Below, one piece after another: positions 6,286 to 63,271 of a stretch of 64,000 nt of DNA (positions within the stretch are counted from its first letter, which is position 1; each line of letters starts with the position of its first letter). This DNA is from a virus. The stretch lies in the IMG/VR virus record IMGVR_UViG_3300034117_000713, positions 62,001 to 126,000 of that record; one strand, 5' to 3'. The translations under genes were made by a program, and so were the position numbers. The notes under the pieces are model-generated. The model ran no database searches. It saw only the letters and a program-made list of their open reading frames with translations, and had not been told where the DNA came from.

Positions 6286-6845
6286 TAGGTGAGTGGGCTT
6301 ATATTAAAAGTTATTTTACGCCCGAACAATGTGATAGAATAATTCAAGAGGCCCTAATTTTGCCAGAACAAGAAGCAAAATTAGGGCCTTCTAGTGATAG
6401 GGTTAACAACGAATGGCGTAGAAGCTCAATTCGCGGTATAGTAAGAAACTCCACATGGTCATACTTGTTTAATGAATTAGACAAGGTAGTTGATCAAATT
6501 AATAAAGAATGGTTTCAGGTAGATTATAAATTTTTACCTGCAATACAGTTTGCTACCTACACTGGTGAAGAACAGAGTTTTTACAAACGGCATCAGGATG
6601 TATTTTTAGCACCGTTACCTACGCAAAGAAAGCTGAGTGTAACTGTACAACTTAGTGATCCTGACGCATACGAAGGCGGTGATTTAAAGTTTTTAGATGT
6701 TGGGCATTATCCTAACTCGGAAAATCTTCGTGCTAGAGGAACAGTTTGTGTATTTCCTAGTATCATTTTTCATGAAGTTACACCGTTAATTAGCGGTGTA
6801 CGACATAGTTTAGCAGGATGGTACGAAGGACCGCATTGGAGATAA
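6282..6845 (+). CDS. 2-oxoglutarate/Fe(II)-dependent oxygenase (prolyl-4-hydroxylase-like), 187 aa
   Basis: Predicted to hydroxylate an amino-acid side chain using O2, 2-oxoglutarate and iron. The double-stranded beta-helix metal triad is visible: H104-Q-D106 in YKRHQDVF and H164 in IIFHEV, with the 2OG-binding Arg at R174 (GVRHSLAGW). EGGDLKF (131-137) matches the conserved core strand of PKHD-type hydroxylases. Start overlaps the upstream YTW gene (ATGA). Such enzymes are common in T4-like environmental phages next to tail genes, where a virion or host protein is the presumed target; the target here is unknown. Confidence 0.92.
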   Translation: MIGEWAYIKSYFTPEQCDRIIQEALILPEQEAKLGPSSDRVNNEWRRSSIRGIVRNSTWSYLFNELDKVVDQINKEWFQVDYKFLPAIQFATYTGEEQSFYKRHQDVFLAPLPTQRKLSVTVQLSDPDAYEGGDLKFLDVGHYPNSENLRARGTVCVFPSIIFHEVTPLISGVRHSLAGWYEGPHWR

Positions 6846-6848
6846 ATA
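6843..6848 (+). promoter_or_regulatory. Late promoter box TAAATA, leaderless spacing
   Basis: Exactly 5 nt separate the box from ATG 6854; by the T4 rule (box at -11 to -6) transcription would start on the A of ATG. No Shine-Dalgarno present. Confidence 0.65.
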
Positions 6849-6853
6849 TTATT

Positions 6854-7177
6854 ATGATTACATATACTTGGGAATTTCCTAGATTTGCTGCACACCCTAC
6901 ATTAAACGGCTTGACAAATGTCGTGTATAATGTAGAGTTTATCTTATCTGCAACAGACGGTGAAGGGCACGGATCTCAAATTTTTGGTTCAGTTGGCCTT
7001 TCGGAACCTGATCCAGAAACATATAAGCCATTTAATCTATTGACTCAAGATGCTGTGCAGGCCTGGGTTGAAACTGCAATGGGTGAAGAAGTCCTTGCAG
7101 ATTATAAACTAAATTTAGAAAATCAAATTGAGCAACAAAAGGCACCTGCTGTTGTTACTCTAAACAAGCCTTGGTAA
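6854..7177 (+). CDS. YTW-family small protein, paralogue 3 (107 aa)
   Basis: An in-frame upstream start at 6818 lies inside the oxygenase gene; the family N-terminus (MITYTWEF) and the late promoter fix the start at ATG 6854. Carries the family loop TDGEGHGS and the helix AVQAWVE. It ends one base before the convergent Nudix gene. Function unknown, as for its two paralogues. Confidence 0.87.
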   Translation: MITYTWEFPRFAAHPTLNGLTNVVYNVEFILSATDGEGHGSQIFGSVGLSEPDPETYKPFNLLTQDAVQAWVETAMGEEVLADYKLNLENQIEQQKAPAVVTLNKPW

Positions 7178-7627
7178 TCAGCTGACTATTTCAATTAGCA
7201 ATTCTATTTTAGTTTTGTTAGTTCGATTAGATAGGCTTCTCTTAACACCTTGATGCAGAGGCTTTGGCCACTGATTTAAACTGCACCATGCGTATCCCAC
7301 GTGTTCGTCATTAAGCACAGGAATAAACTCTTTGTCAACAATTAACATGTATGTGTTAAAATAAAATCGTTGATCTTCACTAGTAAACAGCTCTAGCGGA
7401 ATTACTTTCTTTATTTTAGGCAGAGATCCAACTTCTTCTGTGATTTCTCTTTCTAATGCGGCATACGGAGTAGCATCAGCAGGCTCTTTCTTGCCGCCAA
7501 CAATGCCCCATGTGCCCGCAGTTTTGCCTTGATTTCTTAACAAAAATAAAAATCTTTTTGTATCTTTAGCAAAGAATAAACCTCCACTGCATACAATGTC
7601 TTCACGTATCATAAAACTAAACGCCAT
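7178..7627 (-). CDS. Nudix hydrolase, 149 aa
   Basis: Nudix enzymes hydrolyse nucleoside diphosphates linked to another moiety (e.g. oxidised nucleotides, NADH, ADP-ribose). The Nudix-box core R60-E-I-T-E64-E65-V-G is intact and preceded by G44-G45-K-K-E. Relative to the textbook G-x5-E-x7-RE spacing the loop is offset by one residue, and the upstream acidic position is filled by D51 or E48, which may affect metal binding. Full domain length. The start overlaps the end of the gp15 gene by 19 nt; M6 is an alternative start. Substrate unknown; nucleotide-pool cleaning is the common phage role. Confidence 0.9.
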   Translation of the reverse strand: MAFSFMIREDIVCSGGLFFAKDTKRFLFLLRNQGKTAGTWGIVGGKKEPADATPYAALEREITEEVGSLPKIKKVIPLELFTSEDQRFYFNTYMLIVDKEFIPVLNDEHVGYAWCSLNQWPKPLHQGVKRSLSNRTNKTKIELLIEIVS

Positions 7628-9039
7628 TCACTAGGATAATACATACCGTCTACACTCTTAGACCACTGGGTGCCATCCCACTTGTATTGTATTCCTGTAT
7701 ATGAATTAGTTATATATGTTGTTTCAGTTGTATCTGCAGAACTGAGAATTATATTCCACTGCACTCCGTCCCATTGAATAATATCATTTGCAGATGCAGT
7801 AAAGTTGGTGCTATTACTGTTGGCCCATGCATTAGGTCCATCCTCTTCTGTTGTAACAATATCTTCTAGTATCAAATAACGTGCATCAACACTAGGTGTA
7901 CCTGGATTAAATGTTTTTGGATTTACAATAGCATTGACTGTGCCCCTACTTACAGTATTTGTAAGATCAGAAATTGCAGTGTTCAGCAAAGTTTCTCCGT
8001 CAAACTGAATGTTTAAAACATCCATGTCTGCTTCGTCAAATGGATTAATACTTAGGTAGCCTACAATTTTCCCACCATCAAGTTTTGTAAGTTCGATGTG
8101 GCTCAGTCCTGTTCTAAACTTGCCAGGATATAGATCTAATAATGCCTTCCAGTTAATTTTAGTGCCAGCTTTAATTGGAATCTGTTCTAAGTCATTTACT
8201 AACAAGTTTTCAGATGCTGCCATTAGTTTAGCTGTGTTATTTGTTAACAAGATCGAAAAGTTGCCCGGAGTTACCGTGACTCTAGATACTGGATTAGAGA
8301 AACTAAATTCAGGACCCATTGCACTTGTACCTTGTTCCTCTGCAAAAATGTTAGCAATAATTTTAGTAATGATACCTAACTTTTTAACTTTAGCAGGAGG
8401 ACTTAACCATATAGGAGTTAAGAAATTCATGGTGGCAATGTCAATGTCGTTTTCAGTACCTTGCGGAATAGTTCTGCTAGACCAATTCATTCCGGTAAGC
8501 TCTACATAGCTGAGACTGGTCCAATCAATATAGTTACTAGTAGTCTGTATTTCCATTGCAGGACGAAACAATACTAAAATTTGTTCTAGAATTTGTAGTT
8601 TCTGTTCAGTGTTGGTACTCCACACGTCTGCAACAAATTGTAAATTAAACGGTGTTGGCATTAATCGTTCAACTGTATAATTTTCACCTTGCACATTTGC
8701 GTAGTCTTGAATAGTTTGTCCAAATGTAGGGCTATCTGGGTTTTCATCAACGTAACCAAACTGCCTTTCTCTAATGTGCATTTTGCCCACAAAGCTAGGA
8801 TCTTGTAACCTATCGCGGGCTATGTCTAGACTTTTAATATAGCAGGCAATGAAAGGTGCAGAGTTAAGCACGTTCTCACTGTTCTTTTTCAATGTGCTGG
8901 CTACTTGCCTAGACATATCTCCATATCTAACTGGTATTTGAATCACATTTCCACGACCATCTTTGTAAGTAAAATTACTCATTAGTCGCATAAATTGTGT
9001 CAAGTAACGGCGTATTTGGCCGTCGTAAAAATGTTCCAT
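7609..9039 (-). CDS. 15: Tail sheath stabilisation protein, gp15-like (476 aa)
   Basis: The N-terminus (FYDGQIRRYLTQFMRL, then RYGD, then SAPFIACYI) matches gp15 proximal-tail terminators of T4-like phages, which cap the sheath and tube and join tail to neck. It lies in a minus-strand run with gp14, opposite gp13, as expected for neck genes. T4 gp15 is about 270 aa; this one is enlarged by a C-terminal region with two W-D-G-(V/T)-Q-W motifs, the same short beta module seen in the enlarged sheath protein. A gp15 role is inferred from N-terminal similarity and neighbours. Confidence 0.78.
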   Translation of the reverse strand: MEHFYDGQIRRYLTQFMRLMSNFTYKDGRGNVIQIPVRYGDMSRQVASTLKKNSENVLNSAPFIACYIKSLDIARDRLQDPSFVGKMHIRERQFGYVDENPDSPTFGQTIQDYANVQGENYTVERLMPTPFNLQFVADVWSTNTEQKLQILEQILVLFRPAMEIQTTSNYIDWTSLSYVELTGMNWSSRTIPQGTENDIDIATMNFLTPIWLSPPAKVKKLGIITKIIANIFAEEQGTSAMGPEFSFSNPVSRVTVTPGNFSILLTNNTAKLMAASENLLVNDLEQIPIKAGTKINWKALLDLYPGKFRTGLSHIELTKLDGGKIVGYLSINPFDEADMDVLNIQFDGETLLNTAISDLTNTVSRGTVNAIVNPKTFNPGTPSVDARYLILEDIVTTEEDGPNAWANSNSTNFTASANDIIQWDGVQWNIILSSADTTETTYITNSYTGIQYKWDGTQWSKSVDGMYYPSEWRLVL

Positions 9040-9044
9040 TAATT

Positions 9045-9191
9045 TTATCCTCTAGATTTGTCAAGCTCTTTGCATTCAGGGCATTCGCAGTCCGGACAGT
9101 ATTCGCACTCAGTACAACTATGATCACAGTGTGCAGGACATCCGCATTTGCATTTAGATGTAAATCTTTTGTAATTTTGATAATCGTCCAT
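9045..9191 (-). CDS. Cysteine-rich mini-protein, 48 aa, metal-binding candidate
   Basis: An ATG-to-TAA frame fills the gap between gp15 and gp14. It encodes 10 Cys (positions 14, 16, 18, 22, 26, 29, 32, 35, 37, 40) and two His within 27 residues, then a charged tail ending KSRG. The CxCxC, CxxC and CxC spacing resembles metallothioneins or a compact zinc cluster. A GAGG ribosome site for gp15 lies in its 3' end. No family identified. The frame is short, but chance accumulation of ten Cys codons in one open frame is very unlikely. Confidence 0.72.
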   Translation of the reverse strand: MDDYQNYKRFTSKCKCGCPAHCDHSCTECEYCPDCECPECKELDKSRG

Positions 9192-9202
9192 ATATACCTC
9201 TA

Positions 9203-10408
9203 TCATAAATCTGCTTCAGGCCCCTGTCGTTTCTTTAAAGCCTTACTTAGACTCTGTCTCTCTTCAATAACTCGGCCTGCAATAGTTGCAGTGTTGTTAT
9301 TGTTAATAAAACTGCCAAGTTGAGTATGTCTAGTTAATGCATCTGGTGCAGGAATTCCGTCAACTGGCTTGTTAGTCATAGTCATTCTAACATTGCTTTC
9401 TACATAAACCCAACCGTTGCCGCTAAATCTAAACAATCTATTTGGCATGTAATCTGTGCGTAAATGATATGCACCTATACCGGGGTTAGCTGGGTATTCA
9501 ATGCCGAAACTGTAAGGTGCTCCATTTGGTGGTTTGCCGTCTCCTTGAAGATAGCTAATGTAAACGTCTTTTTCAGGAGTTACAAATACAGAACTTGCAT
9601 CTGCTGCATTACCGTCATAGCTAGCATCAACATCTGTATCAGTAGTGTCTCGAATATCTAATTTGCCATCTTCTTGTAAAGGCAAAATATAATATTGATC
9701 AGTGTCGTATCCACTTAACCCAGCATCTGATTCTGCCTGTGCAATAATTTGATTGTTAATGGCAATGTTTTGATTGTATGTTGAAAGGATGTCTCGAAGG
9801 CTGTTCTGTCCATCACCGCTGTCTTGATCCAATATCTGTTTGTATTCTTGACTGTCAACTAGTGGCTCACATTTTGCACGGAGCAAATGTGGATACCATG
9901 TTTGGCTATAACCTGATGCAGGACGAGCAACATCCGACACTACATAAAATCGTTTTAGTGCAACCATATCGTCGCCTAGTGCATATTCGTCTTTTAAGTG
10001 CGGCAGTTCTAACACATCTCCTGCCATTAATTTTCTACCTAACAGTTCTACAATACCACGTAGGTGGAAAGTAATCATAATGTTATCGTTAGATAAGAAG
10101 AAACCAAACTGCTGAAGATTAAAATCAATATCCTGCATTGTGTAGATTCCTCGAGAAACATACACATCGGGTTCATATTTTCTGTCTCTATTTTCCATAA
10201 ACAACACATCTTGTATTCCTAGTTCAGGAATAGGGTTAGTGTTTACAGGAGTGGTAGGAGTTGCCTCGCCCTCTAAAGGGTCAGCAGGACCTAGGTATTT
10301 GTGAATAATGATATCAGTACCGCCGACTTGAAACTGTTCATAAATGACACGGTCAATCATACGGAAATCATTGCCTTTTTCAGGGCGGTAAAGTGATAGT
10401 CTTGGCAT
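9203..10408 (-). CDS. 14: Neck protein gp14-like (head completion), about 401 aa
   Basis: Matches gp14 neck proteins, which with gp13 form the collar ring closing the packaged head: an N-terminal PRLSLYRPEKGNDFR segment, then DVLFMENRDRKYE, a YTMQDIDFNLQQFGFFLSNDN stretch and GDVLELPHLKD. The open frame extends to 10489, but residues before M-T-M-P-R overlap the divergent gp13 promoter; I start at ATG 10408, with 10414 as alternative. A GNGWVYVES motif near the C-terminus resembles the WDG modules of gp15 and sheath. Divergent from gp13 across a paired late promoter. Confidence 0.85.
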   Translation of the reverse strand: MPRLSLYRPEKGNDFRMIDRVIYEQFQVGGTDIIIHKYLGPADPLEGEATPTTPVNTNPIPELGIQDVLFMENRDRKYEPDVYVSRGIYTMQDIDFNLQQFGFFLSNDNIMITFHLRGIVELLGRKLMAGDVLELPHLKDEYALGDDMVALKRFYVVSDVARPASGYSQTWYPHLLRAKCEPLVDSQEYKQILDQDSGDGQNSLRDILSTYNQNIAINNQIIAQAESDAGLSGYDTDQYYILPLQEDGKLDIRDTTDTDVDASYDGNAADASSVFVTPEKDVYISYLQGDGKPPNGAPYSFGIEYPANPGIGAYHLRTDYMPNRLFRFSGNGWVYVESNVRMTMTNKPVDGIPAPDALTRHTQLGSFINNNNTATIAGRVIEERQSLSKALKKRQGPEADL

Positions 10409-10415
10409 AGTCATA

Positions 10416-10421
10416 TATTTA
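10416..10421 (-). promoter_or_regulatory. Late promoter box TAAATA (minus), divergent pair
   Basis: Reads AATAAATA on the minus strand; predicted +1 is about 10410, two bases before ATG 10408. Shares a 16-bp window with the plus-strand box at 10426. Confidence 0.6.
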
Positions 10422-10425
10422 TTGC

Positions 10426-10431
10426 TAAATA
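10426..10431 (+). promoter_or_regulatory. Late promoter box TAAATA, leaderless spacing
   Basis: GCTAAATATT with exactly 5 nt between box and ATG 10437; predicted +1 is the A of the gp13 start codon. Confidence 0.65.
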
Positions 10432-10436
10432 TTGGT

Positions 10437-11195
10437 ATGAACGAACTTGACACCCAAAGACAAAACGTAGTTGAATATATCCGTACCATGCTAGGTGACG
10501 GGATGGTCGATGTTGAATTAGACCCTAAACACTACAATACTGCTATTGATCGTGCCCTAGCAAAATATCGTCAACGTAGCAGCAATGCTGTTGAAGAAAG
10601 TTTTGGCTTCTTAACCTTGCAAACAGATGTTAATGATTACATACTTGCACCAGAAGTTATGCAAGTTCGTCAAGTATTTCGTAGAAGCGTAGGCAGTAGA
10701 ACAGGCGGTGGCGATGGCGGTACGCTATTTGAACCGTTTAACTTGGCCTATACTAACACTTATCTAATGGCCAGCACACAGATGGGTGGGATTGCTACCT
10801 ATTATATGTTTGCTAGCTACCAGAAAGAAGTTGGTAAAATGTTTGGTAGCTACATTAACTTTGATTGGAATCCTACTGCAAAGCGTTTGAGAATTACTCA
10901 ACGCCCTCGCGGAGAAGAAAACGTTCTATTGTGGATGTATAATCAGAAGCCTGATTTTACCATCATTCAAGACCCTTACTCTGGCATATGGATCAAGGAC
11001 TATGCACTGGCAAACTGTAAAGTCATGCTAGGTGAAGCACGTGAAAAGTTTGCAACTATTGCAAGTCCGCAAGGCGGCACCAACCTAAACGGTACTGCAT
11101 TAAAATCAGAAGGCAAAGCCGAAATGGAAGCCTTAGAAATGGATCTAATCAACTACAAAGATAACCAAACACCGTTGACATTTGTCATAGGATAA
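10437..11195 (+). CDS. 13: Neck protein gp13 (head completion), 252 aa
   Basis: Clear gp13 family member: MNELDTQRQNVVEYIR, then LGDGMVDVELDPKHY and a Q-V-R-Q-V-F-R-R-S motif, all typical of T4-like gp13, which forms the neck ring joining portal to tail. Length is close to T4 gp13 (309 aa) but shorter. ATG 10437 chosen over an in-frame TTG at 10422, because TTG sits upstream of the late promoter box. Transcribed divergently from gp14, its structural partner. Confidence 0.93.
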   Translation: MNELDTQRQNVVEYIRTMLGDGMVDVELDPKHYNTAIDRALAKYRQRSSNAVEESFGFLTLQTDVNDYILAPEVMQVRQVFRRSVGSRTGGGDGGTLFEPFNLAYTNTYLMASTQMGGIATYYMFASYQKEVGKMFGSYINFDWNPTAKRLRITQRPRGEENVLLWMYNQKPDFTIIQDPYSGIWIKDYALANCKVMLGEAREKFATIASPQGGTNLNGTALKSEGKAEMEALEMDLINYKDNQTPLTFVIG

Positions 11196-12235: not shown

Positions 12236-12241
12236 TAAATA
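12236..12241 (+). promoter_or_regulatory. Late promoter box TAAATA for sheath gene
   Basis: ACTAAATATAC, 33 nt before ATG 12275; the leader carries a GGGAGA ribosome site. Confidence 0.65.
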
Positions 12242-12274: not shown

Positions 12275-15200
12275 ATGGCTTTAAATTCACCAGGCGTACA
12301 AGTTAGCGTAATTGACGAGAGTTTTTACTTACCGGCAGCACCGTCGACTGTACCTTTGATTTTTGTGGCAACCGCATCCAACAAGCAGAATGCTAGCGGT
12401 ACAGGTACGGCACCCGGAACACTATCAGCAAATGCTGGTCGAGTTTATTTAATTACTAGCCAACGTGATCTAACTGATACATTCGGAACTCCGCAATTCT
12501 ATCAAGATGCAAGCGGAAATCCAGTACACGGTGGTGAACAAAACGAATACGGCTTACAAGCAGCATATTCTGTATTAGGTGTAAGTTCACGTGCATATGT
12601 TGTTCGTGCAGATTTAGATCTAAGTCAAATTAGTGCAGCAAGTTCTATGCCAGTGGGCGAACCAGTAGACGGAACATACTGGCTTGATACATCTAACACA
12701 CGTTGGGGTATTTTTGAGTGGAACACTTCTACAGACAGCTTTACTAACAAAGTTCCTCTAGTAATTGATAACGATAACTATGCCACAGTAACTGATGGCG
12801 GTACTGGCGTTACTCCAAAAGCAAGTTTTGGCTCTAACGGTCAGTATGCAATAGTAGTAACTAGCGATAATGCCAACACTGTATGGTACAAAAACAGCAG
12901 CGGAAATTGGGTAGTAGTCGGTACAAACTTTGAAGCAGGTTTTGCTTCTGCTGCAACATTCTCTAGCACATGCTGGCAGACAAGCCACCCTGTTGTGGTA
13001 TCTACTGCATCTAACCCTGCATTAACTGCTTATAATGGCAACACATTGATCATCAACGGTCAAACTGTTACCCTAAGCGGAACTACACTAACTGCACTAG
13101 CAACTAGCATTAACACTGCTATGAGAGTGCATGGAGTTGGTTCTAGAGTAAATGCCGGCGGGTTCTTAGAGCTATATGCAGATGCTCGTGCAAAGAGTGA
13201 CGGTTCTGTATCTGACGGAAAGATTAGAATTGTAGAAGGTACTGGATTAGCATTAATGTTAACTGCTATTGGTTTACCAGCAGCTACTTATGATGCAGTA
13301 ACTCTATATCAAGCACCTCACACTAAGTATCCAGATTTTGGCGATAAGCCAACAGGTTCTGTATATGTTAAAACAACTGTGCCTAACAGCGGTGCAGATT
13401 GGTATGTTAAGTTGTACAGCGAAGCACAAGGTGCATTTAGCTTGCAATCTGCTAGTATTTTTGATGAGCATCAAACAGCTATTAATACTATCGATGCTAC
13501 TGGTGATATTCCAGTTGGCAGAGTCTATATTCAGCAGAACTTTACAATGGGTGCAGGAAGTGCAACAACTTCTACATCTAGTCCGCAGGTTGCTGCATTC
13601 AAAGCCTACAGAAGAAACGCCAGCGGTGCAACAAAGATTACCAGCGTTGCTACAACTGGAACAGTTTCTACAACATCTAACTTTGTAATTTACGAAGGTT
13701 TAGACACATCCACTGCTGGCGTTGCTAATTATAGCACTGCATACACTGTTAACTTAGTAGCAGGCGACGATGTTGATGATATTATCAGCAAGATTAACGC
13801 ACTGAATATGACGCATGTAACTGCTAGTGTTGCTAGTTCAAACGCTAGCGGAGCAGCTACAAGTTTAACAATTCAACACGCAATAGGCGGCCAGATCAAT
13901 CTTAAGAATGGTACAGGTTCACCATTGACTAGTGTGTTAGGATTCTCCGGTTGGAGCAGAAACAGCACTACCGGTATTGAAACTGGAACAAAGAATTTAT
14001 ACGCAAAAGCTACATACGACAGCAGAGACATCACGTTCTATGCAAGTAACTGGAAGCCTTTAGTATACGAAGCAGCAGCACAAACACCATTTACAGACCC
14101 AATTGATGGTCAATTATGGTATAGCAGTGTTGTTGACGAAGTAGATATTATGGTTCACAACGGAACAACATGGAAAGGTTATAAGAATGTATATCCTTTA
14201 ACTGATCCTGCAGGTCCAATTGTTGCCAGTGTAGCACCTACTACACAGAGCAACGGTGATCCATTAGTTGATAACGACATTTGGATCAGCACAGCTGACG
14301 TCAGTAACTATGGCAGAGTAGTTTATATCCGTACAGGCGGAAAATGGATTTTACAAGACACTACAGATCAAACAACTCCAGACGGATGGTTGTTTGCAGA
14401 TGCACGTTGGAGCACAGCAGGAACAAGCGAAGAGATGGCAGACATTGTTGATCTACTAGCCAGTGACTACTTAGACCCAGACGCACCAGATCCAGCATTA
14501 TACCCACGTGGTATGCATTTGTGGAACCTACGCCGTTCAGGATTCAACGTTAAGAAGTATGTTACAACACACATCAACATTGATGCAAACGACGGTAAGA
14601 ACCCACGTTACAACGACGAGCAAATGGACGGATCTAACAGCTCTACTCCTTATGTTGCTAACCGTTGGATCACAGTAAGTCCTAACCAACCAACCGGCCA
14701 GGGCAGCTTTGGTCGTTGGGCTCAACGAGGTTTTGTTGTAGAAGCATTCAAAGCCCTAATTGACACTAACCAAAGTATTCGTGACACTGACACTGTAATC
14801 TTTAATTTGATTGCAGCTCCTGGATATCCAGAAGCAATTCAAAATATGATTGCATTCAACACAGATCGCGGATTAACAGCATTTGTTGTTGGTGATACAC
14901 CGTTTAGATTACAACCTAACGGAACAGAACTAAACAACTGGGGCTTCAACACAGCGTTGGCATTTGACAACAGTGAAGAAGGTGCAGTTAGCTATGACGA
15001 ATATATGGCTATGTTCTATCCAAGCGGTTATACAAATGACAACTTAGGAAATGCTATTGTTGTTCCACCAAGCCACATGATGCTACGTACTATCGTTAAC
15101 AGCGATGCTAAGAGCTTCCAGTGGTTTGCTCCGGCTGGCACACGTCGCGGCGGTGTTGACAATGCTACCAGTGTTGGTTACATTACTAGTGAAGGCGAGT

Positions 15201-15659: not shown

Positions 15660-15665
15660 TAAATA
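15660..15665 (+). promoter_or_regulatory. Late promoter box TAAATA for tail tube gene
   Basis: GGTAAATATT, 22 nt before ATG 15688; leader contains AAGGAG. Confidence 0.65.
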
Positions 15666-16343: not shown

Positions 16344-16367
16344 TGGCCCTTTAGGGGGCCTTTTTTT
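16344..16367 (+). terminator. Rho-independent terminator after gp19
   Basis: GGCCC/GGGCC stem followed by seven T residues, 17 bases after the gp19 stop and six bases before the next late promoter box. Confidence 0.85.
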
Positions 16368-16372
16368 ACGGC

Positions 16373-16378
16373 TAAATA
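16373..16378 (+). promoter_or_regulatory. Late promoter box TAAATA, leaderless spacing
   Basis: GGCTAAATATT with exactly 5 nt to ATG 16384 and no Shine-Dalgarno; sits directly behind the gp19 terminator. Confidence 0.7.
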
Positions 16379-18819: not shown

Positions 18820-19287
18820 ATGACAAAGAAACTTGAAGAACTTTTTAATTTGCCGCAAGATAACGAGGAAGTAGTTATTCCTGCCGAACCTATAACAATT
18901 TCCTTACAAGAAAAACTAGAAGAATTTGACAAAATTTCAGCAGCCTTACCTCGTGTTAAAGGACTTGGCGACATTAGCGATAGTGAATTAGATGCACTAG
19001 CAAACAAAGCTGAAAAAGCCTACGACGATCTAATGGATCTAGGTATGAACGTCGAAGCACGTTACGGTGCCCGCATGTTTGAAGTTGCAGGCAATATGCT
19101 AAATGCCGCAATCACTGCCAAAAGTGCAAAAATTGATAAAAAGTTAAAAATGGTAGAATTACAGCTAAAAAAATATGCTGTAGATAAAAAAGAAGGTAAT
19201 GCAAATCCTGAGTCAGTACAAGCTGAAGGAGTGCTGATTACAGACCGTAACAGCCTCATTGCAAAACTTAAAAATCTGGATAAATAA
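18820..19287 (+). CDS. 16: Small terminase subunit gp16-like, 155 aa
   Basis: The small terminase forms a ring that recognises concatemeric DNA and regulates gp17. Acidic N-terminus (EELFNLPQDNEE), a central coiled-coil (NVEARYGARMFEVAGNMLNAAITAKSAKIDKKLKMVELQLKK region) and a short C-terminal tail follow the T4 gp16 layout and length (164 aa). Located just upstream of the large terminase, with two other genes between. Call rests on architecture and context more than residue identity. Confidence 0.8.
   Translation: MTKKLEELFNLPQDNEEVVIPAEPITISLQEKLEEFDKISAALPRVKGLGDISDSELDALANKAEKAYDDLMDLGMNVEARYGARMFEVAGNMLNAAITAKSAKIDKKLKMVELQLKKYAVDKKEGNANPESVQAEGVLITDRNSLIAKLKNLDK
19281..19286 (+). promoter_or_regulatory. 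Late promoter box TAAATA overlapping the gp16 stop
   Basis: GGATAAATAAAG includes the last codons and stop of gp16; 17 nt before ATG 19304. Confidence 0.5.
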
Positions 19288-20841: not shown

Positions 20842-20869
20842 AAATAGCCTCTTAGGAGGCTATTTTTTT
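20842..20869 (+). terminator. Rho-independent terminator
   Basis: Perfect 10-bp stem (AAATAGCCTC/GAGGCTATTT, loop TTAG) running into a T tract, just before the gp17 late promoter. Confidence 0.9.
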
Positions 20870-20872: not shown

Positions 20873-20878
20873 TAAATA
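20873..20878 (+). promoter_or_regulatory. Late promoter box TAAATA, leaderless spacing
   Basis: GGTAAATATT with exactly 5 nt to ATG 20884, no Shine-Dalgarno; directly behind a terminator. Confidence 0.7.
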
Positions 20879-22470: not shown

Positions 22471-22476
22471 TAAATA
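22471..22476 (+). promoter_or_regulatory. Late promoter box TAAATA
   Basis: Overlaps the gp17 stop region (TTAATAAATACG); 7 nt to ATG 22484, predicted leader about two bases. Confidence 0.6.
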
Positions 22477-33723: not shown

Positions 33724-33729
33724 TAAATA
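33724..33729 (+). promoter_or_regulatory. Late promoter box TAAATA, leaderless spacing
   Basis: TTAATAAATATATG: 5 nt from box to ATG 33735. A second, out-of-frame ATG overlaps at 33731. Confidence 0.6.
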
Positions 33730-33734: not shown

Positions 33735-34853
33735 ATGCAGAAATTACCAATCTATTTATACTCCAATTTGTTCAGTGTACAATTAGATCTGGACGACGAT
33801 ATAACAAGGACACATGAAACTATGTACCAACGAGAGTTAAAATTACAAAGAGGACTTAAAAACAAGGTACAGCTACAGTTTAAAAACTCTGATCAAAAAT
33901 TAGTTAGAATTTTAGCTGCATCTAGTACTGTTGGGGCTGCAACATCTGCTTCTAATTTACTCACAGTAGCCGATGCTACCAATGTCCAAGTAGGTATGCT
34001 AGTGAACAGTGATAGTGTAACTAACGGCACTTATATTTCTGCAATTAATTCAAATACCCTAACACTTGATAACTTAGATCCACAATACGATGCTGATCTA
34101 GGACAATTCCTATCACCCATTACTGAAACTATAACATCGGGCACCGCGGTTACTTTCAATCATAATTTTGTATTTTCTATGTTTGATGCAGAACAAAATA
34201 GAATGGTTGTGCAGAAAACACTTGAAGTTATTGACAACGGTGTTACTACTGCAACTCGCGGACTAGCGGTATTATCGTTGACTGAAAACGACACTCGAGA
34301 ACTACATAACGGTTACTATAATTTTTCAGTTACATTGACTGACAATGATGGTTCATCTATCCCTGCATATTCAAACACATATTATAATATTGCCGGAGTT
34401 GCAAGATTAACTAGCGAACTTGTACCAGTATTGAAAGACAGTTTAGAAACTGCTGCCTTTAAATATTTTGCAAATAGGGACGTCGAACCTAATAGATATG
34501 AATTCTATTCTGGAAACTTACGTGCAAATCCTGAAATGAGTCAGGCCACTACAATCGCTATGTATTTTACCAATTACACTGGCACCGTAGATGTGCAAGC
34601 AACCTTGGACAATGCACCTTCTAACTTTGCTAATTATGCAACATTAGAAACTAAAACCTATACAAATTTTACCGGTGTAGATTATGCAAATGCAGTAGGC
34701 ATTTGGAGTGATGTTAGAGTAAAATGGTATCCTGATAATTCAAATTTACCAAATCTGTTAAACTTCTACAGTCCTGAAATGCCAGGCAATCCTACTCCTG
34801 GTTCGGCTTATTATCCAAACGGAAAAATTGACAAAGTACTTGTAAGAAGCTAA
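33735..34853 (+). CDS. Virion structural protein, 372 aa
   Basis: Start at ATG 33735; the frame extends upstream into the minus-strand gene but without signal. Begins MQKLPIYLYSNLFSVQLDLDDD and contains ELKLQRGLKNKVQLQFKNSDQK, strings typical of a conserved structural protein of environmental T4-like phages. Beta-rich, Thr/Asn-rich, without a membrane segment. Late promoter agrees with a virion role. It splits the replication genes in two. Confidence 0.82.
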   Translation: MQKLPIYLYSNLFSVQLDLDDDITRTHETMYQRELKLQRGLKNKVQLQFKNSDQKLVRILAASSTVGAATSASNLLTVADATNVQVGMLVNSDSVTNGTYISAINSNTLTLDNLDPQYDADLGQFLSPITETITSGTAVTFNHNFVFSMFDAEQNRMVVQKTLEVIDNGVTTATRGLAVLSLTENDTRELHNGYYNFSVTLTDNDGSSIPAYSNTYYNIAGVARLTSELVPVLKDSLETAAFKYFANRDVEPNRYEFYSGNLRANPEMSQATTIAMYFTNYTGTVDVQATLDNAPSNFANYATLETKTYTNFTGVDYANAVGIWSDVRVKWYPDNSNLPNLLNFYSPEMPGNPTPGSAYYPNGKIDKVLVRS

Positions 34854-37855: not shown

Positions 37856-37861
37856 TATTTA
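37856..37861 (-). promoter_or_regulatory. Late promoter box TAAATA (minus), leaderless spacing
   Basis: TTAAATATCTCG on the minus strand, exactly 5 nt before ATG 37850. Divergent with the plus box at 37868. Confidence 0.62.
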
Positions 37862-37867: not shown

Positions 37868-37873
37868 TAAATA
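37868..37873 (+). promoter_or_regulatory. Late promoter box TAAATA
   Basis: AAATAAATAATAG, 6 nt before ATG 37880; predicted leader of one base. Divergent pair with 37856. Confidence 0.58.
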
Positions 37874-38596: not shown

Positions 38597-43983
<5,387 letters not shown>

Positions 43984-44039: not shown

Positions 44040-44045
44040 TAAATA
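44040..44045 (+). promoter_or_regulatory. Late promoter box TAAATA, near-leaderless
   Basis: AAGTAAATACTC, 6 nt before ATG 44052; no Shine-Dalgarno. Confidence 0.6.
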
Positions 44046-45086: not shown

Positions 45087-45092
45087 TAAATA
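45087..45092 (+). promoter_or_regulatory. Late promoter box TAAATA, leaderless spacing (4 nt)
   Basis: AAATAAATACTGG, 4 nt before ATG 45097. Confidence 0.55.
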
Positions 45093-46226: not shown

Positions 46227-46507
46227 AGTGTGTACTTATACAGGCCGAAGTATACAGCGGACAAAAAATTGCGTAAAAAAATTTTCAAGAGTGCAAAACA
46301 GTAGTGGCCGAGAGTTTTACAACCCCGGTCTATATAGCCCGCAAAAAATTACTACGCAGTTAAAAGTATAGAGTGAGAACCGTGGTCCTGGTGATCTAGT
46401 CTAACAGGGGTGGGGATTTTGGAAAAAGTTTGACAAGCAAGCAAAGCTAGCGGGCAAGCGGCAGCAGGGGAGCGACCCCCCACCCCACCTCAGTGCCCCA
46501 CCCCACC
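46227..46507. other. Non-coding stretch at the start of the early region
   Basis: No convincing frame. AT-rich on the left, with two similar boxes (GCGGACAAAAAATTGCG at ~46257 and GCCCGCAAAAAATTACTACG at ~46339), G/C-rich on the right. It separates the early minus-strand array from 46226. An origin or regulatory region is possible but not supported by a specific motif. Confidence 0.5.
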
Positions 46508-46516
46508 TCAGTGCCC
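46481..46516 (-). repeat. 18-bp tandem direct repeat, G-rich on minus strand
   Basis: Unit CACCCCACCTCAGTGCCC occurs twice in tandem (46481-46498, 46499-46516), spanning the stop of the 101-aa gene. The minus strand shows repeated GGGG runs that could form a G-quadruplex in RNA or DNA. Confidence 0.8.
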
Positions 46517-46813
46517 CACCACCACCTGGTCCTCATCAGCCTCGAACTGATTAGTCTTGAGTTCTGATGTGCCGTAGCAGTCAAATCCTTCTGCTTCCAG
46601 CTGTTCGATAGCATCGTTGAACAGTGACTCTACTAGCCTAACCTTCTGTGCGATCAGTTCGTCCTTGCGTCTACGTGTGCCCGAGCCTACCTTGTAGACC
46701 ATTGCGTAGTGCTCTGCACAGTAGCTCTTGCCGGGCAGTGTTGCGTGTCCACAGGCAGTGTTGGTGTGACCCAGGTAGGTACATGCTGTGATCTGTGTGC
46801 TCTGCTGCTTCAT
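46508..46813 (-). CDS. Zinc-binding treble-clef-like protein, 101 aa
   Basis: Cys/His set C11, C21-G-H and a P-G-x-S-Y-C31-A-E-H34 turn form a short zinc finger of the GcrA-like/treble-clef type, followed by a helical C-terminus with a basic patch (GTRRRKDEL). Could be a nucleic-acid-binding regulator. ATGA-type overlap with the upstream membrane gene; third gene of the AAA operon. Confidence 0.82.
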   Translation of the reverse strand: MKQQSTQITACTYLGHTNTACGHATLPGKSYCAEHYAMVYKVGSGTRRRKDELIAQKVRLVESLFNDAIEQLEAEGFDCYGTSELKTNQFEADEDQVVVGH

Positions 46814-58505: not shown

Positions 58506-58531
58506 ATAGCTCCTTTTTAGTGTATGTGTGT

Positions 58532-58560
58532 ATTATAGCAAAACTTTGCAACACTGTCAA
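58532..58560 (-). promoter_or_regulatory. Sigma70 promoter
   Basis: TTGACA, 17 bp, TATAAT. Confidence 0.92.
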
Positions 58561-58562
58561 CC

Positions 58563-58589
58563 AAAGACCCTACACAGTGCAGGGCCTTT
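58563..58589 (-). terminator. Nine-bp hairpin AAAGGCCCT/AGGGTCTTT before the -35
   Basis: One G-U pair, 9-nt loop; precedes TTGACA at 58560. Confidence 0.68.
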
Positions 58590-58600
58590 GTGTATTAATA

Positions 58601-58864: not shown

Positions 58865-58891
58865 TGTGTTTCCTTTTGCGTTTAAAAATGT

Positions 58892-58920
58892 ATTATAGCG
58901 TCTTTACTGCCAACCGTCAA
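58892..58920 (-). promoter_or_regulatory. Sigma70 promoter (TTGACG-17-TATAAT)
   Basis: Directly behind the CCAAAGACCC hairpin. Confidence 0.88.
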
Positions 58921-58959
58921 CCAAAGACCCAGAGTCCCGTAGTGTTATAGGGTCTTTGG
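58921..58959 (-). terminator. Ten-bp hairpin CCAAAGACCC/GGGTCTTTGG
   Basis: Perfect stem, 19-nt loop; the 3' arm touches the -35 of the next promoter. Confidence 0.72.
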
Positions 58960-59219
58960 TCCAAGAGAAAACCCTAAAGCCACAAGGGTCTTAGGGTTTC
59001 TCAGTCGTCAGCTGGGCAGGTCTCCCACTAACGCCCCCTCCAGTTGTCCCTGCAATCTCTCGATCGCGAGCCCTAACACGCTTACTGAAACGGTCCTGGA
59101 TTCTCAACAGTTACGGCGATCTATGACAACTACCTCACCAGATCTGCACGGTGCTCCCAGCCAGTAAGAGCCTGCACCAGTTGATTCGGATTTACCTGCT
59201 GTTCTAGGGTTTATCTCTA
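58960..59219 (-). ncRNA. Putative structured RNA downstream of the tRNA (~255 nt)
   Basis: No credible ORF on the minus strand. Five helices nest inside each other: TAGGGTTTATCTC/GAGAAAACCCTA (59205-59217 with 58965-58976, one bulge), CCTGCACCAGTTG/CAGCTGGGCAGG (59171-59183 with 59009-59020, 11 pairs), GACAACT/AGTTGTC (59125-59131 with 59042-59048), GCGATC/GATCGC (59116-59121 with 59062-59067) and CAGT/ACTG (59108-59111 with 59084-59087). The outer 5' arm resembles the 5' arm of the 3' terminator hairpin (58991-59002), so the two pairings are alternatives. Begins at the tRNA CCA end. Pairing is seen; a functional RNA is inferred. Confidence 0.62.
58965..59002 (-). terminator. Terminator hairpin after the putative RNA
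   Basis: GAGAAACCCTAAG pairs with CTTTAGGGTTTTCTC around ACCCTTGTGG; a shorter CCCTAAG form leaves TTTTCTCTT as U-tract. Confidence 0.7.
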
Positions 59220-59294
59220 TGGTGCACCAACTTGGAATTGAACCAAGACTCAATCGATTATGAGTCGAACGCTTTACCATTAAGCTATTGGTGC
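59220..59294 (-). tRNA. tRNA with CAU anticodon (Met or lysidine-type Ile), CCA encoded
   Basis: Cloverleaf folds cleanly: acceptor GCACCAA/TTGGTGC, discriminator A, CCA; D-arm GCTT/AAGC with AATGGTA loop; anticodon arm TTCGA-CTCATAA-TCGAT (outermost T-T mismatch, anticodon CAT); T-arm CTTGG-TTCAATT-CCAAG. Total 75 nt with CCA. Elongator Met and Ile2 (needing TilS) cannot be told apart by eye; acceptor G1-C72 argues against an initiator. Confidence 0.95.
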
Positions 59295-59306
59295 AGCTCT
59301 AACACT

Positions 59307-59335
59307 AGTATAACATCACTTGCCCATGCTTGCAA
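59307..59335 (-). promoter_or_regulatory. Promoter for the tRNA and downstream RNA
   Basis: TTGCAA, 17 bp, TATACT within the 3' end of the glycosyltransferase-like gene; predicted start a few bases before the tRNA. Confidence 0.65.
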
Positions 59336-60059
59336 GCGGAAAATATTGCCAGTCTGATAACAGCACAGGCGTTAGATCCATCTTTGATCTGCGGATGAAC
59401 CATTTATTACGATGCATATCCAAGCCGTCTACTAGGTTACTCACACAGCTATCAATTAGATACAGCTCTTCTGCCCCTTCTATTACTGACAGCCAGTTGA
59501 CCACGTTGTCCGTGACACCTTCCCGTATATACACTACCTGATAACCCGCATCTTCAGCTTCTGAAAAGTCTAGATTCAATCGAGTATCTGATCCTTCTAG
59601 ATGCACTACTATATAATGATCCTGAGTTACTACCTTACTGTATACAGCACTCTCTGCAACGGGGTCTCTGGTTATACACTCTGGGAGTCGCTGCTTATGC
59701 TTGAATGGCACTCCCGCCTTGGCATACTTGGTCTGATCGAACTTGAGTATGGGAAACAGATCCGGATCAGTCAGTTCGGGCATGTTACTCAAGAACTGAT
59801 ACAGGCATATGATGTCCTCGCAGCCTCGGTACTTCAAATTCTTCTCTGCATGATGGTAAAAGAAGCTACCATCACGAGTAGTCTTCAACGGGATCCAAGT
59901 AACCCAAGGAGCACACTGAGTCATCGTGCTCATAAACTCTTCACAGATGGGCCACAGTACCTCATCATATCCGGATTCTTTATAGTGCAGTGCAATGGGC
60001 AATGCAATAAACAAGTCACCCAATCCACGCGACTGTATAATACCTATAGTTCTTTTCAT
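59316..60059 (-). CDS. GT9/heptosyltransferase-like protein, 247 aa
   Basis: Start at ATG 60059; the frame reaches a TTG at 60068. I-Q-S-R-G-L-G-D-L-F-I-A-L-P-I-A matches the N-terminal nucleotide-sugar motif of ADP-heptose-type glycosyltransferases (GLGDxxxxxP), and VVHLEGSDTRLNL with the late YLIDSCVSNLVDGL recall the C-terminal sugar-nucleotide pocket. Shorter than GT9 (~330 aa). Likely transfers a sugar to DNA, protein or surface glycan; acceptor unknown. Confidence 0.85.
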   Translation of the reverse strand: MKRTIGIIQSRGLGDLFIALPIALHYKESGYDEVLWPICEEFMSTMTQCAPWVTWIPLKTTRDGSFFYHHAEKNLKYRGCEDIICLYQFLSNMPELTDPDLFPILKFDQTKYAKAGVPFKHKQRLPECITRDPVAESAVYSKVVTQDHYIVVHLEGSDTRLNLDFSEAEDAGYQVVYIREGVTDNVVNWLSVIEGAEELYLIDSCVSNLVDGLDMHRNKWFIRRSKMDLTPVLLSDWQYFPLASMGK

Positions 60060-60071
60060 TATTTTCAATCT

Positions 60072-60077
60072 ATTACA
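60072..60077 (-). promoter_or_regulatory. Weak -10 (TGTAAT) after the AAAGACCCCGTTG element
   Basis: 12 nt before ATG 60059; -35 poor. Shares GACCCCGTTG with the promoter at 60262. Confidence 0.4.
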
Positions 60078-60097
60078 ACGGGGTCTTTGTGTATATA

Positions 60098-60223
60098 TTA
60101 CTTGCGAGTGTTACGTGCGATCTCTTCCATCCAACGATCACGATCACGCTGCTTGTACACATGGCTCTTATAAAAGAACACTGCGAAGAAGCCTATGAAG
60201 AAGCTCTTAAGTATCTGTCCCAT
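60098..60223 (-). CDS. Small membrane protein, 41 aa
   Basis: MGQILKSFFIGFFAVFFYKS then HVYKQRDRDRWMEEIARNTR and K: one TM helix and a basic/acidic cytoplasmic tail. AAGGATAACACA leader with AAAGGAT site, consensus promoter 40 nt upstream. Likely an envelope-associated early peptide. Confidence 0.75.
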   Translation of the reverse strand: MGQILKSFFIGFFAVFFYKSHVYKQRDRDRWMEEIARNTRK

Positions 60224-60261
60224 TGTGTTATCCTTTCGATTCTACTTAGTGTATATAGTAT

Positions 60262-60290
60262 ATTATACAACGGGGTCTTGGTTTTGTCAA
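60262..60290 (-). promoter_or_regulatory. Sigma70 promoter, spacer with GACCCCGTTG
   Basis: TTGACA, 17 bp, TATAAT; serves the 41-aa membrane protein. Confidence 0.9.
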
Positions 60291-60713
60291 TGGTTACCGT
60301 GGCAGAACCGCAACAGATCGGTGGTGATTCGGTGGCAAAATGGTGAAGAAACGGTGGAGTTTTGGTGTGGTTTTGGAGTTTTTCAGGCGGAAAACTATGG
60401 TTTTTCCACTGTGATTTAAGCTAGAATTTTTTAGAATGGCGGCGGGGCTGAGAGGTATAGTTAGAATGGTGCCAACTCTAATCTCACAATTCTCACTGTA
60501 GACCAAAGGATACCCCACTGTAGATATTGTTTTCTTTGGTTACTCACTGTGCCCAACAATTTCTGGATTGACCCCCACAGTTCTGCCATCGGTCTTTACA
60601 ACGGGGTCTAGTGTATATATACTATAGCTAAGGTTCTTGTATATAGTATTCAAGTTCAGCACAGTGACTAGATCAGTGTTATACGCACAGTCAGTTATAC
60701 ACAGTGTTTGACT

Positions 60714-60719
60714 TAAATA
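60714..60719 (+). promoter_or_regulatory. Late promoter box TAAATA
   Basis: CTTAAATATCTG, nine nt before ATG 60729; predicted leader of four bases. Confidence 0.58.
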
Positions 60720-60728
60720 TCTGTACAT

Positions 60729-60944
60729 ATGAATCGAGCGGAATTTCAACAAGAGTTATTAGCATACACATATAGTCTACTAGTACAGACTCAATATGCT
60801 GACTCCGAACGATCAGTGCAGTTGTGCTATCAGATGGGAGTTCTTTTGAGATTATTAACTGATCTGGCAGATGCTGACAGTTATAACTACAACAGGATCA
60901 AATATACTATACATCCGGAACTCAAGCCTAAGTCTAAGAGTTAA
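60729..60944 (+). CDS. Small helical late protein, 71 aa
   Basis: MNRAEFQQELLAYTYSLLVQ... mostly helical with a Lys-rich end (ELKPKSKS). Late promoter. No recognised motif; first gene of the right-hand late cluster. Confidence 0.78.
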   Translation: MNRAEFQQELLAYTYSLLVQTQYADSERSVQLCYQMGVLLRLLTDLADADSYNYNRIKYTIHPELKPKSKS

Positions 60945-60980
60945 TGATAACTATCTGAACTTATTGAGAGAGAACTATAT

Positions 60981-61661
60981 ATGAATTTTGTTTTTGATGT
61001 TGACGGTACATTAACACCGTCGAGAGGTCAGATGGATCCCGAGTTTAAGCTGTGGTTTAAGACGTGGATTAGGCACAAGCCCGTGTATCTGGTCACTGGA
61101 TCTGATTACGCCAAGACTTTGGAGCAGGTTGGAAAGGATCTCTGTGAGTCAGTTACGGGTGTGTATAACTGTGCCGCGAATCAACTGCATCGAAGTGGTG
61201 TTCAAGAATACTCGCAGGAGTTTACCTTACTGCCCGCTCAGCGGGGGTTCTTAGAAGGACTGTTGGCAGCATCGCAGTGGCCCATACGCACTGGACAGCA
61301 CATAGAAGATCGTGGTGCATTGACCAACTTTAGCACTGTGGGGCGTGGTGCTGACCCAGCTCAACGTGCTCTATATTCAGCTTGGGATCGATCTGTACAG
61401 GAACGCCGCCGACTGGCAGTGCTAATAGAAACTCAGTATCCCGAACTTGCAGCCACAGTAGCAGGTGAAACGGGCATTGACATATACCCACAGGGCCGGG
61501 ACAAGAGTCAGATCTGTACAGATATTCGGGGCATTGTGTTCTTTGGAGATCAGACACAGCCCGGGGGCAATGACTATACCATCAGTCAACAGGCCCAAAC
61601 AGTTCACACTGTGTCATCGTGGACAGACACTTGGGAAATATTGCGAACACAATATGCCTAA
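60981..61661 (+). CDS. Eukaryotic-type phosphomannomutase-like HAD phosphotransferase, 226 aa
   Basis: Catalytic F5-D6-V-D8-G-T-L-T motif, then the cap, and near residues 165-205 the PMM-specific strings IDIYPQGRDKSQ and VFFGDQTQPGGND, which match the substrate-loop and GDKTxxGGNDxEI of eukaryotic/archaeal-type PMM2. It would interconvert hexose-6- and hexose-1-phosphates, feeding sugar nucleotide synthesis, fitting the nearby GT9-like gene. Slightly shorter than PMM2 (246 aa). Stop overlaps the next start by 8 nt. Confidence 0.87.
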   Translation: MNFVFDVDGTLTPSRGQMDPEFKLWFKTWIRHKPVYLVTGSDYAKTLEQVGKDLCESVTGVYNCAANQLHRSGVQEYSQEFTLLPAQRGFLEGLLAASQWPIRTGQHIEDRGALTNFSTVGRGADPAQRALYSAWDRSVQERRRLAVLIETQYPELAATVAGETGIDIYPQGRDKSQICTDIRGIVFFGDQTQPGGNDYTISQQAQTVHTVSSWTDTWEILRTQYA

Positions 61662-63135
61662 AACTCAGTGTGTGATCTTATGGTCAGATCACAGTTGGAC
61701 AGATCGTGACAATGAGATCAGCAGAGCATTAAATGCGGGCTATCAAAAGAGCCTGGGACCCTATCTGATCAGCAGTGCATTGGCCGCACAGGGCTACAGC
61801 ACTGAAGTGGTCAATATGAGCTACATGACCTGGGATCAGCTGTGGGCACGGGTAGAACCCCTATTGGACCAGGATACACTGTGGGTGGGTGTCAGTACCA
61901 CATTTGCCGTTAGGGGCCTGTTCGGACTCATGACCCTGAAATCGGATTGGCGGCAGATCATGCAGTTCATGGCTCGTGTACGCACAGTGAGCCCCAAGTG
62001 CCAGTTTGCGGCCGGTGGTTACTTCTCGGGAGTATGGACTCGACTGGGCTGGTGGGTGTTTAAAAATCACAGTGACGAAAGCATCGTAGCCTGGACAGAT
62101 CATCTAGCTGGACGGAATCCCCTTTGGACCCATACTAATCGCATCATAGAGGGCAATCATAACGTGCTGTTCAAAAGTCGTGTACACACATGGCGAGGTG
62201 TGACTCAGGGTGAAGCCCTACCTCTAGAGATCAGCAGAGGGTGCCGCTTCAAGTGTGCATTCTGTAGGTTCAGCTTGAATGGCCGTGCCAAGAACGATTA
62301 TCTACGTGACCCCCAGTGTATTAGGGCAGAGCTAGAAGCCAACTATGCTCAGTGGGGTACTACACGCTATACACTGGCAGATGACACATTTAACGAAAGC
62401 ACAGAAAAACTAGAAAGCATATGGCTGGCTGTGAAAGACCTCAAGTTCAGAGTCAAGTTCTCTGCATACATACGTGTGGACCTATTGGAAAGCCACCCTG
62501 AACAGATACAGTTGTTACGGAACCTGGGCATTGAAAACGCCATGTTTGGCATAGAGAGCCTGAACCCCCGTAATGGCCCCATAATTGGCAAGGCCCGTGA
62601 CCCCCAGCGTACCATTGACTTTATTGCAGAGTTGCGAACCCAGCATTGGCCCGGCGTGGGCCTGCATTCAGGATTCATATTGGGCCTGCCCTGGGATCGA
62701 CCAGAGTCCTCAGGTGCCGAACTAGCAGACTGGGCTGTGAGCGATCAATGCCCCCTACACAGTGTCAGCATAGAATCACTGAACATCATACGCCCTGCAT
62801 GGCGTAAGTTCTGGAGTGAAAACAATACCCTAAGCCTATTTGATGCTGACGCTGAAAAGTATGGGTATCTGTGGCTAGACCCCCGTGAACAAGAGTGGAC
62901 CAACAGCAATACGGGTATGAGCCTGACCCAGGCCTATCTGGACAGCTATCGGGCTGCGGAGAAGATATTCCATCATGCTGATCAGCATAGGGTAGCGGGC
63001 TTTGCATTTAACAGGTTCATTAATCTGGGCATACCCGAGTCGGCGTTGACTACCCAGACCATCAAGCAGATTAGCCAGCAGTGGGATTTACCCGAGCTGA
63101 CTAGGCAGCGTCACTGGCTCTGCTCTAGCTCTTGA
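61654..63135 (+). CDS. Radical SAM protein with N-terminal B12-type Rossmann domain, 493 aa
   Basis: Start at ATG 61654; the open frame extends upstream within the PMM gene. N-terminal 150 residues (YLISSALAAQGYSTEVVNM, VGVSTTF) resemble the cobalamin-binding Rossmann domain of class B radical SAM enzymes, though the DxHxxG cobalamin motif is not evident. Cluster ligands C197-R-F-K-C201-A-F-C204; the radical SAM barrel follows with YTLADDTFN and GIESLNPRNG. Substrate unknown; sits with sugar-phosphate and glycosyltransferase-like genes. Convergent overlap of 25 bp with the next gene. Confidence 0.9.
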   Translation: MPKTQCVILWSDHSWTDRDNEISRALNAGYQKSLGPYLISSALAAQGYSTEVVNMSYMTWDQLWARVEPLLDQDTLWVGVSTTFAVRGLFGLMTLKSDWRQIMQFMARVRTVSPKCQFAAGGYFSGVWTRLGWWVFKNHSDESIVAWTDHLAGRNPLWTHTNRIIEGNHNVLFKSRVHTWRGVTQGEALPLEISRGCRFKCAFCRFSLNGRAKNDYLRDPQCIRAELEANYAQWGTTRYTLADDTFNESTEKLESIWLAVKDLKFRVKFSAYIRVDLLESHPEQIQLLRNLGIENAMFGIESLNPRNGPIIGKARDPQRTIDFIAELRTQHWPGVGLHSGFILGLPWDRPESSGAELADWAVSDQCPLHSVSIESLNIIRPAWRKFWSENNTLSLFDADAEKYGYLWLDPREQEWTNSNTGMSLTQAYLDSYRAAEKIFHHADQHRVAGFAFNRFINLGIPESALTTQTIKQISQQWDLPELTRQRHWLCSSS

Positions 63136-63260
63136 ATAGCCACTTGCAGTTGAAATATATTGCTCAACAACTCTGCACTGGGCTCTTGATTGTATGCTAG
63201 TTGCAGTTCGGCTAGATTGCTACGTAACATTAGCAAATGAGTTTGATTTTTTGTATCCAT
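63111..63260 (-). CDS. Small coiled-coil protein, 49 aa
   Basis: ATG 63260 (MDTKNQTHLLMLRSNLAELQ) exactly 5 nt behind a minus-strand late box; the larger frame crosses the divergent promoter. Leu/Gln heptads throughout. Overlaps the radical SAM gene 3' end antisense. Confidence 0.75.
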   Translation of the reverse strand: MDTKNQTHLLMLRSNLAELQLAYNQEPSAELLSNIFQLQVAIQELEQSQ

Positions 63261-63265
63261 ACAGA

Positions 63266-63271
63266 TATTTA
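63266..63271 (-). promoter_or_regulatory. Late promoter box TAAATA (minus), leaderless spacing
   Basis: AATAAATATCTG, exactly 5 nt before ATG 63260; divergent pair with 63277. Confidence 0.65.

Follow-up and report, generated by a model that had tools for sequence, protein, structure and literature searches.

How do the late genes of a T4-like phage of freshwater type begin, and do all of their transcripts carry a leader? The question is raised by a window of 64,000 nucleotides (nt), the whole stretch of DNA analysed here (positions 62,001 to 126,000 of IMG/VR virus record IMGVR_UViG_3300034117_000713), which belongs to a record of 151,088 bases that is itself possibly partial. At a number of its genes, including those of the virion, the hexamer TAAATA stands immediately ahead of the start codon, often exactly 5 nt before the ATG. 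Late transcription directed by gp55 is a textbook system. A preliminary description of this DNA had taken the hexamers for late promoters of this kind and assumed a box reaching from -13 with five bases left before +1; this geometry agrees with that reported for T4, in which the first base of the late box TATAAATA lies at -13 and 5 nt separate the box from +1 (PMC2988020). Since the T4 box starts at -13, five spacer bases would place +1 on the A of the ATG. The best reading of our analyses, and one we regard as very probable, is that these hexamers are gp55-type late promoters giving rise to leaderless mRNAs, beside a second, T4-like class of late genes with leaders.

The putative late box and its distance from the start codon

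The putative late box here, TAAATA, is identical with the final six bases of that of T4. These six bases are present at all the sites for which a T4 late box had been claimed, but the full TATAAATA is absent from them. The complete octamer was indeed rejected as the motif, as it is not enriched in the window, where it occurs in 2 copies, fewer than chance expects, neither of them at a listed site. When the upstream flank of the box was tabulated over 12 bases, sites in related contigs had mostly A or G at -13 and A, C or G at -12, the first two box positions not being TA.

The pattern TAAATA-N5-ATG occurs seven times in the window against 1.09 expected, and none of 100 shuffles reached seven. 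A scan of the box-to-ATG distance across the rest of the record, proposed in the preliminary description, likewise revealed the 5-nt excess (13 occurrences in 151 kb against 1.21 expected, Poisson P = 6e-10; a reversed-pattern control gave 3 occurrences), and 11 of the 13 sites open a reading frame (ORF) of at least 40 amino acids (aa). Among all 4096 hexamers tried at 38 offsets (3-40 nt) from ATG over the whole record, TAAATA at 5 nt ranks second, preceded by AAGGAG at 6 nt, i.e. the Shine-Dalgarno (SD) sequence. Overall, TAAATA is depleted in the record, with 79 copies seen and 153-165 expected under Markov models.

The close-spaced sites of the window, predicted to yield leaderless transcripts, and two adjoining terminators are as follows (window coordinates):

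6843..6848, plus strand: TAAATA, 5 nt before ATG 6854; 107-aa ORF, phrog_7802
10426..10431, plus strand: TAAATA, 5 nt before ATG 10437; head-tail adaptor, Ad2-like, phrog_211
16345..16367, plus strand: intrinsic terminator (hairpin and T-run) whose end lies immediately ahead of the box at 16373
16373..16378, plus strand: TAAATA, 5 nt before ATG 16384; second tail-tube-like protein, 538 aa, phrog_13438
20844..20869, plus strand: intrinsic terminator whose end lies immediately ahead of the box at 20873
20873..20878, plus strand: TAAATA, 5 nt before ATG 20884; TerL
22471..22476, plus strand: TAAATA, 7 nt before ATG 22484; virion structural protein, phrog_13484, portal-like by its position beside TerL
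33724..33729, plus strand: TAAATA, 5 nt before ATG 33735; 372-aa protein with a weak virion-protein match
37856..37861, minus strand: TAAATA, 5 nt before ATG 37850; 186-aa ORF
37868..37873, plus strand: TAAATA, 6 nt before ATG 37880; phrog_36119, unknown function
44040..44045, plus strand: TAAATA, 6 nt before ATG 44052; radical-SAM-like protein
45087..45092, plus strand: TAAATA, 4 nt before ATG 45097; 181 aa
63266..63271, minus strand: TAAATA, 5 nt before ATG 63260; ORF of only 49 aa

The seven genes first described as having the box at exactly 5 nt (6854, 10437, 16384, 20884, 33735, 37850 and 63260, the last two on the minus strand) all have it there, and the four spacings given more loosely as 4-7 nt are 6 nt for 37880 and 44052, 4 nt for 45097 and 7 nt for 22484. 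The ATGs of 37850(-) and 37880(+) are divergent, 29 bp apart, with back-to-back boxes, one for each gene.

Conservation of the spacing in related phages

Relatives were gathered by means of TerL and the tail sheath, which gave 159 related contigs or loci (2.07 Mb), the database contigs being partial. They contain 1041 distinct TAAATA sites, of which 206 have an ATG at 5 nt, compared with roughly 10-60 at other offsets; control hexamers have a flat offset profile with no such spacing. A lack of 5-nt excess in related genomes had been named beforehand as the result that would count against the idea; an excess was found both here and among 80 marine loci related to Pelagibacter phage HTVC008M (104 of 637 TAAATA sites). 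Sites in the related contigs are not independent, and the numbers of gene families with a 5-nt site, 14 in the clade of the record and 11 in the marine loci, are the safer counts.

The same picture emerges gene by gene. The box lies at 5 nt in 52 of 57 sites of TerL orthologues, with 34 different spacers, and in 59 of 65 sites of the second tail tube, with 29 spacers and amino acid identity down to 34%. The gene at 33735 has it at 5 nt in 8 of 8 orthologues among the matches listed, with identity down to 59% and a varying spacer. Spacer letters thus vary while the distance stays constant across orthologues, and it is therefore the exact distance, not the letters, that is kept. Some families are more mixed: orthologues of 22484 have the box at 5 nt (26), 6 nt (17) or 7 nt (10), those of the adaptor at 10437 at exactly 5 nt in 31 of 39 sites and at 15-21 nt in the other 8, and those of 6854 either at 5 nt, as in 5 sites, or at 19-25 nt.

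Two discrete classes of late genes

We assigned boxes 4-7 nt before the start to a close class and those at 15-39 nt to a distant, leadered class, requiring an ORF of at least 60 aa. In the related contigs 307 sites fall at 4-7 nt and 284 at 15-39 nt, with only 16 at 8-14 nt; the close class comprises 210 sites at 5 nt and 18, 26 and 53 at 4, 6 and 7 nt. An SD four-mer is present in 3% of the close class versus 71-73% of the distant groups, and the median pairing energy with the 16S tail is 0.4 kcal/mol in the former versus -6.4 and -7.3 kcal/mol in the latter. The early impressions that close sites mostly do without SD and that late genes form two classes are thus both borne out, the classes being discrete, with SD nearly confined to the distant one. 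Individual genes switch class: orthologues of 19304 have the box at 5-7 nt (26) or at 17-24 nt (34), and those of 10437 and 6854 behave likewise, almost never with intermediate spacings. Switching without intermediates is what one would expect of genes that require either an AUG at the 5' end or enough space for an SD.

Other properties of the close class concern the start itself. A pyrimidine-purine transcription start would call for T or C at -1; the base there is T or C in 205 of the 210 sites with a 5-nt spacing and in every site with a spacing of 6 or 7 nt, versus 61% and 43% in the leadered groups. Start codons at 5 nt that open an ORF of at least 60 aa are ATG in 210 cases, GTG in none and TTG in 2, in line with the AUG starts expected of leaderless mRNAs. 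A terminator lies directly upstream of 97 of 306 close sites but of a single one among 283 distant sites, and 14 of 4000 places chosen at random have one; in 81 of the 97 the T-run ends 4-5 nt before the box, and it lies about 16-20 nt from the ATG. Read-through RNA would thus end just ahead of the gene.

The leadered sites of the window are the following:

5871..5876, plus strand: TAAATA, 25 nt before ATG 5902; GGAG
12236..12241, plus strand: TAAATA, 33 nt before ATG 12275 (tail sheath); GGGAG as SD
15660..15665, plus strand: TAAATA, 22 nt before ATG 15688 (tail tube, phrog_4542); AAGGAG as SD
19281..19286, plus strand: TAAATA, 17 nt before ATG 19304; AGGAAA
63277..63282, plus strand: TAAATA, 15 nt before ATG 63298; GGGAG
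63519..63524, plus strand: TAAATA, 20 nt before ATG 63545; AAAGGAG

The longer, SD-containing leaders noted earlier for 12275, 15688, 63298 and 63545 correspond to boxes at 33, 22, 15 and 20 nt. Orthologues of the tail sheath always have the box at 28-38 nt, and those of the main tail tube always at 19-25 nt.

Proposed mechanism and alternative explanations

A late sigma factor of the gp55 type, 301 aa long, is encoded in the record (record 13707-14612; phrog_234, E 2.8e-26; phrog_12791, E 5.9e-83); its N-terminal part is about 110 aa longer than that of T4 gp55. We propose that this factor reads TAAATA as a late promoter, that with five bases between box and start transcription would begin at the A of ATG, and that the mRNA, having no leader, would be translated from its 5'-terminal AUG by leaderless initiation. 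Boxes at 4, 6 and 7 nt would leave leaders of 0-2 nt, and the remaining late genes would use the same box 15-40 nt upstream and an SD leader. Late promoters with +1 on the start codon beside an SD-led class, as originally predicted, have passed the tests that sequences allow.

Several points weigh against this proposal. The RNA 5' ends are deduced from geometry, and the 5-nt offset of +1 is borrowed from T4, whose box is the longer TATAAATA; the sites in related contigs are, as said, not independent samples. In a pairwise alignment the gp55 of the record does not have the C-terminal clamp-binding stretch of T4, and a search of the 151-kb partial record for the gp45 sliding clamp gave no match. 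With that stretch missing, gp45 not found in the partial record and gp33 not searched for, the activation mechanism may differ. A search of bacterial genomes for the phage, made to identify the host, found nothing, and the proposal presumes a host able to translate leaderless mRNAs. Of the individual sites, 6854 is ambiguous in class, having GGAG 13-16 nt upstream as an exception to the absence of SD, and 63260(-), with an ORF of merely 49 aa, may not be a gene.

The alternative that fares best, though we consider it improbable, accepts the late promoters but puts +1 upstream or at scattered positions, so that the mRNAs would have short non-SD leaders and not be truly leaderless. Start sites can indeed wobble by 1-2 nt, and some families have conserved boxes at 6 and 7 nt; yet 5 nt dominates in the counts given above, and the T or C at -1 for each spacing suggests that transcription starts on the A of ATG throughout. 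It is decidedly unlikely that TAAATA near the ATG is instead a translation signal on longer mRNAs, for example an A/U-rich ribosome-binding element. The box does occupy the usual position of the SD and replaces it, but the same hexamer is found 15-40 nt upstream of SD-led genes in the same phages, matches the final six T4 late-box bases, directly follows terminators and is associated with a pyrimidine at -1; a gp55 homologue is encoded, and other A/T hexamers have no such spacing. Hardly credible is the notion that translation bypasses the ATG at +1 and begins at a downstream SD-led codon: a few genes (20884, 33735) have at codon 27-29 a second ATG in frame, accompanied by a weak SD-like stretch, but orthologues align from residue 1 with conserved N-termini (e.g. 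MANAFTNF in the tail tube), and in most genes an SD-led alternative is absent. Chance or composition, conceivable for an A/T-rich motif in an A/T-rich phage, can be practically dismissed, as no control hexamer or reversed pattern behaves alike, TAAATA, though scarcer than expected, is concentrated at a single offset, and the conservation tests already refute this explanation.

Two candidate partners of leaderless initiation were considered and rejected. Phage-encoded bS21 had no match in 11 clade records (this one and ten relatives, possibly partial); HTVC008M has it, but so do PA5oct and Phosso, which are both without the 5-nt pattern, PA5oct clearly so. The single tRNA gene (window 59220-59294, minus strand, CAT anticodon) is of the elongator Met or Ile2 type and not an initiator that could favour leaderless mRNAs: judged by eye, its acceptor stem is fully paired (G1-C72) and its anticodon stem does not have the three G-C pairs.

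Gene content and possible role of two modes

The boxed genes are of late type (TerL, tail tube, sheath, adaptor, baseplate wedge, fibres), and those for the single-stranded DNA-binding protein and UvsX have an SD and no TAAATA box. A 1621-aa tail fibre at window 39115-43980 (minus strand) matches collagen-like and fibre-family proteins, and the end of the record holds another fibre-like gene (L006:2315-5086). G+C content rises near 40 kb, from about 38-44% (window 1-40000) to 47-50% (40000-64000), and there the gene layout gives way to numerous small ORFs, most of them on the minus strand; this region may hold early genes or have been acquired. A near-identical stretch of at least 50 bases occurs twice within coding sequence, at record 40120 and 47861, 7.7 kb apart, and C-rich short tandem repeats (CCCCACCCCACCTCAGTG) are found at window about 46460-46560.

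Tentatively, environmental T4-type phages might use a single type of late promoter for two modes of translation: a leaderless one for packaging, connector and baseplate genes (TerL, the Ad2-like adaptor, gp25, gp2/gp4) and an SD-led one for bulk virion proteins (sheath, main tail tube, the HTVC008M capsid). A phage could in this way set protein ratios, or favour late mRNAs when the host initiation machinery changes late in infection, and genes would change class in evolution by jumping the 8-14-nt gap. This speculative scheme is doubtful as a whole; the sorting of genes between the classes, judged without statistics, may point to a role in protein ratios, although one large baseplate wedge gene belongs to the leadered class.

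If the leaderless reading is true, phages that abound in fresh water and in the sea, a cultured SAR11 phage among them, would rely on leaderless translation as a main route to their structural proteins. The reading would also provide a sequence rule for locating late promoters and the right start codons in phages for which prediction had been unsuccessful, and make it directly testable when and why phages use leaderless translation.

Comparison with known systems

Among named phages, those of the PA5oct group come nearest in TerL (54% identity), followed by Phosso, Atu_ph07 and the CBB/Munch jumbo phages. The 5-nt leaderless-type class is not general to T4-type late promoters, and we rejected it as a general T4-like property: no clear excess over the reversed pattern was found in T4, PA5oct, Phosso, Atu_ph07, CBB, Vibrio 2.275.O, S-PM2, KVP40, phiM12, CBA120, Munch, pf16, AF3, Cr30, P-SSM2 or RAS14, and the 5-nt sites in an annotated stretch of S-PM2 are not starts of coding sequences. 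Small excesses occur in Flavobacterium phage immuto (7 versus 3) and marine virus AG-345-O18 (6 versus 2). Our search of open-access papers found no report of leaderless late mRNAs in T4-like phages.

T4 itself resembles the phage of the record in the TAAATA core, the gp55-type sigma factor, the placement at virion genes and the subset with SD leaders, but differs in that the record phage has a large class predicted from sequence to be without leader; in the T4 late region examined, boxes lie 9-46 nt from the start, 27-28 nt being typical; an SD accompanies them, and no box stands at 5 nt. The record phage has mostly A or G at -13, as does the Aeh1 variant named in PMC2988020. For CBB/GAP32-type jumbo phages an ATAAATA late motif has been predicted, and gp55 was found there but gp33 and gp45 were not (PMC5259590). 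The motif and the presence of gp55 without a detected gp45 are similar here (gp33 not searched), whereas in CBB and Munch the 5-nt spacing is not in excess.

A close parallel is the cultured SAR11 phage HTVC008M (KC465899), with 14 5-nt sites against 4 for the reversed pattern (range 6280-75830). Its predicted leaderless starts include the ATGs at 6280, 7562, 11972, 16007(-), 18916(-), 18943, 19456, 31132, 49760, 75559 and 75830 (coordinates of that phage's record). Of 12 such sites in two annotated stretches, 11 are annotated starts of coding sequences, and the genes include gp2, gp4, gp48-like, gp25-like and tail completion genes; the gp25 homologues of HTVC008M and the record phage (E 1e-8) both have a 5-nt box. 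A study of pelagimyophages stated that their late promoters were not predictable with the methods used for cyanophages (PMC7029224). HTVC008M and its marine relatives share with the record phage TAAATA, the exact 5-nt class, the SD class and the order terminator-box-ATG, but in HTVC008M the box is usually followed by GT, gp45 is present and gp55 has a hydrophobic C-terminus. The shared arrangement was either inherited from a common ancestor or reached twice. Outside phages, the -10 motif close to ORFs in Deinococcus-Thermus (PMC12340547) and other bacterial leaderless genes likewise combine a fixed short promoter-start distance with a leaderless mRNA, the difference being that they rely on a cellular sigma factor and a -10 motif, not on a phage late sigma factor.

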